From Candidatus Fermentithermobacillaceae bacterium (GTDB lineage: Bacteria > Bacillota > Sulfobacillia > Fermentithermobacillales > Fermentithermobacillaceae), in NCBI GenBank assembly GCA_012837895.1, contig DUQH01000082.1:1-64000 (forward strand): a DNA stretch of 64,000 bases, written 5' to 3'. This document shows positions 1 to 5,088 of this stretch, piece after piece. The stretch's first letter is position 1, and each line of letters opens with the position of its first letter. The position numbers and the translations under genes are program-made. The notes below the pieces were generated by a model, which did no database searches, was not told the DNA's origin, and was given only the letters and a program-made list of their open reading frames with translations.

Positions 1-357
1 ACAGCAAACAGGTCAGAATGGCGTACGTGGTACACCATTTCATGGGCCGAAAGGCTGAAGGTGAGCCAGAATGGTGCATGTAGTGCACCATTTTGTCGAT
101 GGCGAGACAGCAAACAGGTCAGAATGGTGTACGTGGTGCACCATTTCATGGGCCGGAAGGCTGAAGGTGAGCCAGAATGGTGCATGTAGTGCACCGTCAT
201 GTCGATGGCGAGACTGCAAACAGGCCAGAATGGTGCATGTGGTGCACCATTTCAGCGACCGCAAGGCCGGAAATGGACCGGAATGGTGCACGTGGTACGC
301 CGTTTTATCGTTGGTGAGACGGGAAACAGGCTAAAATGGTGCACGTAGTGCACCATT
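1..357. repeat. 53-bp-period tandem array of 23-bp inverted repeats
   Basis: Seven dyads begin at 17, 70, 123, 176, 229, 282 and 335, exactly 53 bp apart. The last copy is a perfect inverted repeat, AATGGTGCAC-GTA-GTGCACCATT; the other copies differ from perfect pairing only by transitions. The 30-bp spacers fall into two alternating types: one contains GGGCCGAAAGGCTGAAGGTGAG, degrading in later copies, written here as GGGCCGAAAGG plus CTGAAGGTGAG; the other contains GATGGCGAGAC and GCAAACAGG. The true higher-order period is therefore 106 bp. The array is cut off by the left edge of the window. Since 53 is not a multiple of 3, it is not a protein repeat, and recurrence of spacers excludes a normal CRISPR array. 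Its function is unknown. Confidence 0.9.
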
Positions 358-506
358 CCGCTGGTCTTCTATTGGCCTTCTATGAGCTAAGAGCAAAGAA
401 CCTGGGGATCAAGAGCACGCCCCCACACAGGTCGTCCACAAGCACGTCCTCATACAGGCTGTCCAGGCACAGAAAGACAAGCAGGCACGGATGGATCAGC
501 AGCTAC
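358..506. other. Non-coding stretch between repeat array and M42 terminator
   Basis: No convincing gene is visible here. Open frames that cross it have no SD and resemble no known family. A weak internal duplication (ACAGG-N2-GTCC occurring twice, about 27 bp apart near 435-465) is the only structure seen. Confidence 0.5.
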
Positions 507-554
507 AAAAAGATCAGAGGGCATTTCCCTCAAGAAAAAGGGGAAACGCCCTCC
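507..554 (-). terminator. Rho-independent terminator of the tsaD-rSAM-M42 operon
   Basis: On the minus strand a stem GAGGGCGTTTCCC pairs with GGGAAATGCCCTC (one G-U pair) around an 11-nt loop. It is followed closely by a run of five T. It lies about 60 bp beyond the stop of the last M42 gene, where a leftward operon should end. Confidence 0.8.
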
Positions 555-610: not shown

Positions 611-1606
611 TCAGAAATCCAGCGGACTTTCACATGCAGCTACGCAAAGCTTGACGCAAGCTTCTACGTCACCCAGATCCACCATCTCACAGGGGCTGTG
701 GATATACCTGGACGGAATTGATATCACCCCTGCCGGTATCCCTGCCCGTGTCAGTTGGATGGCGCCTGAATCTGTGCCTCCCCGTTCCAGGACTTCCATC
801 TGGTACGGAATGCCGTTCTCCTCAGCCAGTTTCACAAGGTAATCCCTGAGCCCGGGATGGCAGATCAAGCTGGAATCTTTGACCTTGATAGCTGCGCCTT
901 TACCAAGGGATACATCCATGGTATGGGATTTGGGGGTATCACCCGTTCCCGTAACATCAAAAGCTATGCCCACGTCAGGGTTGATCCCGTAGGCAGCTAC
1001 CCTGGCGCCCCTCAGTCCGACCTCTTCCTGGCTTGCGAACACTGCGTAGATGTCATGTGCTGTTTGCTTCAATCTCTTCAAAACTTCAATCACAACTACG
1101 CAACCAATCCTGTCATCCATTGCTTTGGCTACCATGCGGTTGCCCAGGTCAATCGCAGGCTGGAAGAAAGCGGCCATGTCGCCTACCTTGACCTTCTTTG
1201 AGGCTTCTTCGCGGCTGGCGGCACCAATGTCGATATAGAGTTTTTCGAGTTTCAGGTCTTTTATGTCATCCAGCTTCTCGCATCCAATCACACCAAAGGT
1301 ACCGTTCTCGAAATACACCCGCTGCCCCAGAGAGATCACAGGGGACACTCCTCCGATATTCGCAAACCGCAGGAATCCGTTTTCGTCTATATGCGTCACT
1401 ATAGCGCCGATTTCATCCATATGGGCATCAAGGATTACCTTTTTCCCTCCGCCGCTCCCTTTCTTGAAGCATATGAAATTGCCCAGAGCGTCAACCCTGA
1501 TCTCGTCAACATAGGGCTCAACTTCTTTCCTGATAACTTCCCTTATGGGTCCCTCGGAACCCGAAGGCCCAAAAGTCTCTGTCAGTCTCTTGATAAGGTC
1601 TTTCAT
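611..1606 (-). CDS. M42 family metallo-aminopeptidase, third of three tandem copies
   Basis: 331 aa, the usual length for the M42 (glutamyl aminopeptidase/CelM/FrvX) family. These are cobalt- or zinc-dependent cytosolic aminopeptidases that usually assemble into self-compartmentalised tetrahedral dodecamers and trim short peptides. All expected metal or catalytic residues are visible: DAHMDE (His62, Asp64), MDDR (Asp164), QEE (Glu194, Glu195), Asp217 in AFDVT and His303 in RYIHSPCE. The ATG has the SD GGGAGG and overlaps the preceding gene's stop by 4 nt, so translation is probably coupled. It is the last gene before a terminator. Substrate preference (acidic versus neutral residues) cannot be read from the sequence. 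Confidence 0.93.
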   Translation of the reverse strand: MKDLIKRLTETFGPSGSEGPIREVIRKEVEPYVDEIRVDALGNFICFKKGSGGGKKVILDAHMDEIGAIVTHIDENGFLRFANIGGVSPVISLGQRVYFENGTFGVIGCEKLDDIKDLKLEKLYIDIGAASREEASKKVKVGDMAAFFQPAIDLGNRMVAKAMDDRIGCVVVIEVLKRLKQTAHDIYAVFASQEEVGLRGARVAAYGINPDVGIAFDVTGTGDTPKSHTMDVSLGKGAAIKVKDSSLICHPGLRDYLVKLAEENGIPYQMEVLERGGTDSGAIQLTRAGIPAGVISIPSRYIHSPCEMVDLGDVEACVKLCVAACESPLDF

Positions 1607-2622: not shown

Positions 2623-3674
2623 GTCTTCAACTCCTTCACAAAGCCTGCGTCAACAGACGCAATAAACCTGGCCAACAGCCTGCCTGCATCCTCCACGTCA
2701 CTTATAGCGAGGGTTTCAACAGATGTGTGCATATACCGCAAAGGAATTGAAACCAGGCCGGTTGCTACTCCTGCCCGGGTAACCTGTATTGCCCATGCAT
2801 CAGTACCTGTAGCTGCAGGGGCGATCTCGTTCTGCACTTTGACTCCAATCTCTTTGGCTGCCTTTTCAAGTGCAGCAAAAACTTTAGGATGAATGTTCCC
2901 GCCTTGGGCAAGAGCAGGCCCTTTCCCCACAGATGCGGTTCTCCACTCAGGCACTCCAGGCGTCTCACCGTGGCACACATCAATAGCTATGCCGATGTCA
3001 GGTTCGATACCGTAAGATGAGACAAGGGCACCCCTCAAGCCTATTTCTTCCTGCGTGGTAGCTACAGCGTACACATCCGCATCTACTTTGTACTTGCGCA
3101 GCTCATCAAGGCAAACCAGGATAACCGCAACCCCTGCCCTGTCGTCGAGAGCTTTGCCTGAAAACCTGTCGCCCATAAGCTCGCTGACCTGGCGCTTGAA
3201 GGTTACAACGTCGCCTACCCGGACCAGGTTCCGCACTTCTTCTTCAGGCAATCCGGTGTCAATAAACAAGTCTTCCATCTTGTGGGCTTTTCTCGCCTCT
3301 TCAGGTGAAGTGAGATGGGGCGGTTTCACCCCGATTACGCCTGTCAGCGGCCTCTTACCGTACACAATCACTTCATGGGCAGGCAAAACCCGCTGATCCA
3401 CACCGCCTACAGGGGCAAACTTGAGGAAGCCGCCTTCCTCAATCTTGGTTACAATCAGCCCGATTTCGTCCATATGTCCTGCAAGCATTATCTTAGGCCT
3501 GGGCTGGGGACCTTGCCCATACTTCACTCCTATGACGTTGCCGAGCACGTCCACCTGGACTTCATCTACCAGGCCTTCCATTGCATCTCTTGCCACTGAT
3601 GCAATGTCCATGAATTCAAATCCCGACACCCCGTGGGCCAGCGAGGCCGTCTTAAGGAACTCTCTTACGTCCAA
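2613..3674 (-). CDS. M42 family metallo-aminopeptidase, first of three tandem copies
   Basis: 353 aa from a TTG start at 3674. This start has an excellent SD (TAGGAGGG, 9-10 nt upstream) and gives the typical M42 N-terminus (DVREFLKTASLAHGVSG). The frame stays open to 3731, but starts there have poorer SDs. M42 motifs: LAGHMDE, ALDDRAG, TQEEIGLRGA, IAIDVCHGE and RYMHTSVE, so all metal and catalytic positions are kept. It follows the radical SAM gene by about 73 bp and overlaps the next paralog. The three copies are clearly diverged, so this is an old duplication and not a recent amplification. Confidence 0.92.
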   Translation of the reverse strand: MDVREFLKTASLAHGVSGFEFMDIASVARDAMEGLVDEVQVDVLGNVIGVKYGQGPQPRPKIMLAGHMDEIGLIVTKIEEGGFLKFAPVGGVDQRVLPAHEVIVYGKRPLTGVIGVKPPHLTSPEEARKAHKMEDLFIDTGLPEEEVRNLVRVGDVVTFKRQVSELMGDRFSGKALDDRAGVAVILVCLDELRKYKVDADVYAVATTQEEIGLRGALVSSYGIEPDIGIAIDVCHGETPGVPEWRTASVGKGPALAQGGNIHPKVFAALEKAAKEIGVKVQNEIAPAATGTDAWAIQVTRAGVATGLVSIPLRYMHTSVETLAISDVEDAGRLLARFIASVDAGFVKELKTWI

Positions 3675-3747
3675 TCGCCTTACCCTCCTAACCAACGTTT
3701 GTTGTATGATTAACATTCTTTGGAACTCCAAACAATCCTGCCGGTAC

Positions 3748-5088
3748 TCAAGCTAGCACAACAGCTTTTCCGGATAATTGCTCAAAGGTCTTGTAGCTTA
3801 CTCCTTCAAGATCCCTGCCCCAGGGGTCAAAAGCTCTCTTAGGAAGTGTTACCGCACCAAACTCAGAACCCTGGCCGGCGATTTCACTGTACGCGGCGAG
3901 AAAGTCCCTGACAGTAAGAAGGCCGGCAGCTTCGATATTGCCCCCGAAGAACAATGAAGGTACCCCTTCAACAGCCGTCGTTAGTCCACGTAGTTCAAGT
4001 GCATCTTCGATAACCGGTTTTGCCAGTGCTGAGGTAAGCACAAGCACCCGCCTGCGTTTCACCCTGGATTCCCGTTCCCATTCAAACCATGCTTCAAGAT
4101 CCAGGTCGTCATACATCACAAGCCCTGACGGCTGAAACCTTTGTTTGTTGATCACAGTCTCATAGAGGACACCCTGCCTGTCATAAGCTACCCGGGGCTT
4201 CTCGTGATCCCTTATCAGCTCGAAGGCTTCAGTCCGTGTCATCACTCGCCGCCTCAGCACTTCGGTGATCACGTCCCCAGGCCTGATTCCAGCTCTCCTT
4301 GCCGGCGACCTGGGCAACACATGCTCAACCACAGGGGTTACCGATGTTATCCCCGGAGGTTCAAACAGTACCGGGATTTTGAGATCCTTCTGCAGGTCTT
4401 GACTGAAACTCCTTGCTTCATCCACGTCGAACGAAGCTGCGTCCTTCCACAGGGGGTGGAGCCGGGAAAACCCAGGCGACATTATCCGTATGGACCACGC
4501 GCCTGACTCTTTCAAGAAGCTTGCAGTATTACTCACGTCGTCCCATCCGGTCACAAAGGGCAGTGCGACTATGCTTCCTTCAAACCTGACTTTCCCGCCA
4601 AGGCCCTCCACATTCCGCAAGGTGCTTTCAGGCTGTTTATCCCCCATGACCTGTTCCCTGTGGCCCACGGTGTTAAGGGATACCATGAGTTCAACCTCTA
4701 GTTCTGAAAGCAGCCCAATGAGTTCTGGATTAAGCAATGAAGCGTTGGTTGTGACCCTGATGATCCTGTCAGGGTAGTGTTGCCGCAGGAGCTTGAGGAT
4801 TTGCGGAAACTCAGGATGGGTAAGAGGTTCGCCCTCGGTAATCCTTGTGACCGACTCACCTATGACGATAGGCCCCCGGGAGCCTGTGAGCCACAATATG
4901 CTATCTTCAATCTCCTCCAGGCGCCTGGGAGGTATGGTAAACACCTCGCACGTCTCAGGATTGTAGGCGTTAGAGCAAAAAATACACTGCATGTTGCAGC
5001 GAGAGGTAAGGGGTAGTATGCCTTGCATCTGGGCATGATACAGCAGCGCTTCCATGGATGGGGGCGGTGTACGGGCAAGCTGCATCAT
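3748..5088 (-). CDS. Radical SAM protein with internal PDZ and C-terminal DUF512-like domain
   Basis: 446 aa. The radical SAM cluster motif is CNMQCIFC (Cys31, Cys35, Cys38), followed by a partial TIM-barrel region (GEPLTHPEF, RVTTNAS). A PDZ domain lies near 255-315 (SPARRAGIRPGDVI). The C-terminal about 100 residues (VLVLTSALAKPVIEDAL, FFGGNIEAAGLLTVRDFL) resemble DUF512. Known Bacillota proteins with these three parts usually carry the PDZ at the N-terminus, so the order here looks rearranged. The start overlaps the tsaD stop as ATGA, indicating coupling. The substrate is unknown; the PDZ suggests that it engages a peptide or protein C-terminus. Confidence 0.85.
   Translation of the reverse strand: MMQLARTPPPSMEALLYHAQMQGILPLTSRCNMQCIFCSNAYNPETCEVFTIPPRRLEEIEDSILWLTGSRGPIVIGESVTRITEGEPLTHPEFPQILKLLRQHYPDRIIRVTTNASLLNPELIGLLSELEVELMVSLNTVGHREQVMGDKQPESTLRNVEGLGGKVRFEGSIVALPFVTGWDDVSNTASFLKESGAWSIRIMSPGFSRLHPLWKDAASFDVDEARSFSQDLQKDLKIPVLFEPPGITSVTPVVEHVLPRSPARRAGIRPGDVITEVLRRRVMTRTEAFELIRDHEKPRVAYDRQGVLYETVINKQRFQPSGLVMYDDLDLEAWFEWERESRVKRRRVLVLTSALAKPVIEDALELRGLTTAVEGVPSLFFGGNIEAAGLLTVRDFLAAYSEIAGQGSEFGAVTLPKRAFDPWGRDLEGVSYKTFEQLSGKAVVLA

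Follow-up and report, generated by a model that had tools for sequence, protein, structure and literature searches.

An array of inverted repeats (dyads) spaced in whole turns of the double helix lies at the start of the window (the whole 64,000-nucleotide stretch of contig DUQH01000082.1 analyzed here), and arrays of this kind adjoin genes of a protein family in which a winged helix-turn-helix (HTH) is joined to a nuclease-like domain. The best explanation, with a probability of roughly one half, is a phased-dyad DNA platform combined with a nuclease-linked mobile element, perhaps now kept by the host. Neither junk repeats nor an RNA seems an apt description of the system, which has the appearance of a genome element of a new kind. 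Genomes, contigs and loci are designated by G, C and L numbers, G000 being the Candidatus Fermentithermobacillaceae genome that contains the window.

Dyad arrays spaced in whole helical turns

The window array occupies positions 1-357 and contains seven dyads of 23 bp, each with one to four mismatches to AATGGTGCACGTGGTGCACCATT, whose starts (17, 70, 123, 176, 229, 282 and 335) follow one another in exact 53-bp steps, as the initial annotation of this DNA had described. The alternation of two 30-bp spacers, A and B, which gives a 106-bp unit, proved equally real: TRF found 85% matches at period 106 versus 66% at period 53, and the final two spacers are diverged A and B versions. The array begins at base 1 of its contig (G000:C104) and has thus been cut by the assembly; covariance model R1 gave hits in it, and its 100% match is G000:C104:1-357. 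The features of this region are as follows.

1..357, no strand: orphan dyad array with helical phasing, truncated at base 1 by the end of the contig (covariance model R1 hits)
17..39, no strand: dyad 1 (A-type unit), AATGGCGTACGTGGTACACCATT, three mismatches to the consensus
70..92, no strand: dyad 2, AATGGTGCATGTAGTGCACCATT
123..145, no strand: dyad 3, AATGGTGTACGTGGTGCACCATT
176..198, no strand: dyad 4, AATGGTGCATGTAGTGCACCGTC
229..251, no strand: dyad 5, AATGGTGCATGTGGTGCACCATT
282..304, no strand: dyad 6, AATGGTGCACGTGGTACGCCGTT
335..357, no strand: dyad 7, array end, AATGGTGCACGTAGTGCACCATT
505..553, minus strand: inverted repeat resembling an intrinsic terminator of the flanking peptidase gene, which it separates from the array (sequence reading: gagggcatttccc / gggaaacgccctc plus an A-run on the plus strand)
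611..1606, minus strand: flanking peptidase gene (M42-like by sequence reading), an ORF with orthologs in G001-G005; a site marker outside the system

A terminator-like element similar to that at 505..553 also follows the orthologous peptidase gene in G004, G002 and G001. In G002 and G004, only the terminator and then the next gene are present 3' of the peptidase gene, with no array, and no single dyad was found at the window's own site in array-less species. Elsewhere in the window, the intergenic segment 42630-42748 is without an array, and its G001 ortholog (L163) has a three-dyad array.

Further copies of the dyad, for which a search of the genome and its relatives had been suggested, are abundant: G000 has about 20 arrays in total, including that of the window, and relatives also carry them. 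The genome-wide dyad pattern gave 95 hits, versus 0 for a reversed-pattern control, an occurrence far beyond chance. Many arrays of G000 sit at contig ends, implying that the repeats break the assembly; two such ends (L068 on C95 and L070 on C42) have common spacers, which suggests that they are the two sides of one array beside a nuclease gene. Named records with pattern hits place the dyad family in Candidatus Fermentithermobacillaceae. Each of the five genomes of the genus has arrays (G003 weakly), as do two of the three genomes of a sister genus, where the dyad is AGTGGCTCAC-N3-GTGAGCCACT. Every array is intergenic. No shared function was found among the domain-searched neighboring proteins and no common orientation among the flanking genes; a regulon of one pathway was rejected because these genes are unrelated. 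CRISPR arrays were likewise dismissed, as the repeats vary and the spacers are related within arrays, and no cas genes occurred among the domain-searched neighbors.

The spacing of the dyads was analyzed in seven genomes, which supplied 63 arrays and 468 dyads. Every one of the 285 interior spacings fell at 42-43 bp (35), 52-54 bp (244), 63-64 bp (4), 75 bp (1) or 95 bp (1, equal to 42+53, with one dyad skipped or lost), and off-pattern spacings were confined to array ends. The values from 42 to 75 bp correspond to four, five, six and seven turns of about 10.6 bp. In 20,000 random draws, the observed mean phase at 10.6 bp was never reached with one count per array, and it was reached 42 times with one count per genome-value pair. 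In the unit consensus, AWTGGTGCAY-N3-RTGCACCATT TTGGC..N..CCGAAAACC, the A-tract lies about three turns from one dyad center and two from the next. Such whole-turn spacing of sites is that of helically phased protein-binding arrays, and it implies that the array acts as double-stranded DNA, on which dimers would be aligned on one helical face.

Conservation and the RNA and minisatellite readings

Several arrays have spacers that have diverged completely while the dyads have not. In L175, L180, L059 and L192, spacer identity is 30-37%, which is the random level, dyad cores are 76-93% identical, and the spacing is still 53 bp; the dyads and their spacing are evidently held by selection rather than drift. 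This combination speaks against a neutral minisatellite spread by slippage and recombination, in which units would decay evenly and spacing would drift, and we consider such an origin very improbable. Near-identical neighboring units in some arrays (L058 and L060) indicate that units do duplicate, but none of the 285 interior spacings is off phase, and unit order is equal at 99% identity. Highly variable copy number with random spacing among close strains, named at the outset as the mark of a minisatellite, was not what the comparison of G000 and G001 revealed: at two loci of 99% identity, the seven comparable units are unchanged and in the same order. The phasing refutes neutrality unless the mutational process itself makes 10.6-bp steps. 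In one G001 array (L150:4660-4926), an IS-like sequence interrupts the repeats, which are intact in the 99%-identical G000 locus L063.

A structured RNA or processed hairpin transcript appears just as improbable. The dyads could form hairpins on either strand, but the arms were paired in 85.3% of cases versus 85.8% in shuffles, and this lack of covariation argues against an RNA hairpin. The initial annotation had read many arm deviations as keeping G-U pairing on one strand; this impression was misleading, since 65 units contain 113 G-U versus 94 A-C cells and neither strand is preferred. Neither compensatory changes nor an Rfam match for the array was found, the spacing is quantized in turns of B-DNA, and a terminator-like repeat stands between the window array and its neighboring gene. 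Of the two natures originally offered for the array, a multimeric DNA-binding array or a structured RNA, the former is strongly supported by helical-turn spacing, conserved dyads and dispersed intergenic copies, and the latter finds no support in covariation, strand bias or Rfam.

A winged-HTH nuclease family beside the arrays

The presence of a dedicated DNA-binding protein near other copies, also raised as a check on the array, was borne out. Unannotated gaps beside arrays in G000 (L068, the gene at 3412-4197), G001 (L158) and the sister-genus genome G012 (L171) encode one protein family, with identities of 80% and about 50% between members. These proteins begin with a MarR-like winged HTH, and the C-terminal half matches phage homing-endonuclease PHROG 9084 and 559 in all 22 aligned members and PHROG 7140 in 20 of them. 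Pfam, NCBIfam and PADLOC gave no family beyond weak HTH matches; no Pfam nuclease family passed, and the nuclease match at the sequence level is that to the PHROGs. Invariant residues (E142, D144, E155, Q160-H161, D181 and K184) lie in the motifs E-x-D, E-x-x-G-x-Q-H, T and D-x-x-K. Phage relatives have the same two-domain layout, and a predicted model (pLDDT 72) of one of them, rather than of the cellular protein, matched I-Bth0305I (3r3p, E 0.011) and Vsr (1vsr, E 0.026) in Foldseek, both E-values being weak and both probabilities 1.00. The conserved acidic and histidine residues, together with this fold, seen via the phage relative, are those of EDxHD/Vsr-like nucleases, and the enzyme is best grouped close to the EDxHD homing endonucleases. 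Among 154 genomes of the class, 36 have the family, in 1-11 copies; no intron was seen. Purifying selection acts on the genes (dN/dS 0.09-0.15). Several paralogs have a reported in-frame stop (L240 in G000:C40, G000:C64, L222 and L239), suggesting gene decay or turnover.

Genes of this family and arrays are linked. Within 1.5 kb, an array is present at 19 of the 28 paralog loci, compared with 6 of the 89 control windows (p = 2e-10), and a same-contig control gave 10 of 17 versus 2 of 25; the filter detected no array at the remaining nine paralog loci, and just 4 of the 16 class members that are more distant have one. For most paralogs, the adjoining arrays consist of a different dyad, with spacings of 32, 42 or 64 bp, and the best periods of paralog arrays deviate from n x 10.6 by no more than 1.5 bp in 16 of 19 cases (p = 6e-7, the orthologs among them not being independent). 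In another family of the order, paralogs adjoin the dyad GTGCCAAC at exactly 42 bp, the gene in G015 and G016 being followed by CAGTGCCAAC-N3-GTTTGCACTG dyads at exactly this spacing. A paralog clade of G000, G001 and G002 is followed by TGG-N11-CCA dyads at 32, 32 and 41 bp, which in these three species add up to 105 bp, or ten turns. The side of the array is constant within clades: downstream in the GGTGCAC, GTGCCAAC and TGG clades and upstream in others; arrays directly precede the gene in about half of the clades of paralogs and follow it in the remainder. Protein and dyad similarity were correlated (Mantel r 0.30, 24/5000). Beside a distant family member in the closed 3.6-Mb genome G037, a large array of 75-bp period with long inverted CAGATTCTGCGCGT arms was observed (L287, 20-1065).

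Between a potD-like gene and a MATE gene, G000 and G001 have both nuclease gene and array. The same interval in G002 has neither and contains one perfect dyad, whose flanks on both sides correspond to those lying outside gene and array in the occupied allele; this lone dyad could equally be a single target or a collapsed array. The mechanism proposed here, comprising binding, cutting and spreading, is an interpretation of the dyads, phasing, conservation, gene-array linkage and single-dyad empty site found in the sequences. A sequence-specific protein would bind as one dimer at each 23-bp dyad, and dyads three to seven whole turns apart would place the dimers on one DNA face, where they could assemble together. 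The cognate protein would be the winged-HTH protein with a Vsr/I-Bth0305I-like (EDxHD) nuclease domain, usually encoded beside its own array, and the window array would be an orphan copy of the GGTGCAC subfamily. The nuclease most likely acts at or near the dyads, and arrays, sometimes with the gene, may be spread, expanded or collapsed as breaks are repaired or as dyads recombine with one another. The empty site, dispersed orphans and tandem duplicates are what suggest that nuclease action and dyad-to-dyad repair move the arrays. The outcome would be a nuclease-linked mobile element resembling REP/RAYT in its logic, which the host may now keep.

Orphan arrays are the main unexplained point of this model. 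No GGTGCAC-subfamily gene was detected in G002 (93% complete) or G004 (80%), both of which have many intact arrays, or in G007, which has one; missing assembly, another binding protein or host use could account for them, and another protein may maintain the arrays in these three genomes. The conserved dyads of G002 and G004 would fit a platform that structures or regulates the host chromosome, with long-lived sites for a nucleoid or regulatory protein (domesticated, or with a different HTH) and the nuclease family as a parasite or as the ancestral source of the DNA-binding domain. Up to three species also retain arrays at orthologous sites (L058/L157/L175, L066/L187, L062/L193 and L152/L176) at a synonymous divergence around or above 0.7, but at other sites their presence differs between sister species, the flanking genes lack a common function or orientation, and the gene-array linkage recurs with different dyads, which together leave this platform a serious but minority candidate. 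Autoregulation or titration, in which the adjoining array keeps a harmful nuclease repressed or sequestered, with orphan arrays serving as decoys, would suit the upstream arrays of about half the clades and the large excess of dyads over genes; it is rather doubtful, given that the GGTGCAC clade has its arrays downstream and orphan arrays persist where no gene was detected. We therefore favor, from comparative sequence evidence, a nuclease-linked mobile or domesticated array system that probably acts like REP/RAYT with a different enzyme.

Relation to known systems and significance

Plasmid iterons and the ParR/TubR centromere arrays are phased repeated sites that load many dimers on one face, as is predicted here; unlike them, the present arrays have many chromosomal copies and a nuclease domain, and no replication or partition gene was seen alongside. 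The Neisserial NIME elements (dRS3/RS) are also intergenic, with conserved inverted repeats of about 20 bp and variable spacers, and in this they resemble the arrays; we know of no fixed helical spacing or adjoining nuclease family in them. In Cohnella thailandensis, about nine loci (L200-L208) have the dyad GTGGTGCAY-N3-RTGCACCAC at exactly 51 bp, but they were rejected as the same system, since no nuclease-family gene was found near the arrays or in the genome. The GTAGGGTGCA-type palindromes arrayed at 39-44 bp in Nitrosomonas (L113 and L118) and Desulfobacterales (L108) are probably ordinary REP sequences.

REP/REPIN/BIME elements and their RAYT enzymes combine short palindromic intergenic repeats in tandem arrays with an enzyme beside its own repeat type (PMC3116915, PMC3733652). 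The present system shares these properties, including the location of each enzyme copy beside its own repeat type, as well as dispersed orphan copies and paralogs with different repeats in one genome. It differs in its whole-turn spacing, in its winged-HTH plus EDxHD-like nuclease, and in dyad arms that vary independently rather than as a conserved hairpin; the unit consensus has no GTAG or CGTC tag. RAYT as the partner enzyme was ruled out, because the Y1 transposase (PF01797) had no matches in the array-bearing G000-G004 and G012, being present only in G007 and G010. With EDxHD homing endonucleases such as I-Bth0305I, which dimerizes on a target of nearly 60 bp (PMC3943268), and with Vsr, the family shares its C-terminal PHROG match and fold; it differs from these homing endonucleases in being bacterial and chromosomal, in using a MarR-like winged HTH for DNA binding, and in its multi-dyad arrays. 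No description of the combination of nuclease and phased array was found in the literature covered, to which most subscription journals did not belong. A wider reading, held tentatively and at somewhat below even odds, is a class-wide undescribed element in which winged-HTH proteins with EDxHD-like nuclease domains, each with its own phased dyads, home or spread via these dyads and seed dozens of orphan arrays kept by the host.

By sequence comparison alone, these findings connect a dispersed repeat of bacteria with a family of nucleases, and they reveal a repeat spacing that keeps to the helical pitch of DNA from genome to genome. If the proposed model is true, REP/RAYT would not be the sole enzyme-linked palindrome system, homing-type nucleases would have a new life on bacterial chromosomes, and the paralogs with different dyads would provide a natural set for reading winged-HTH specificity.
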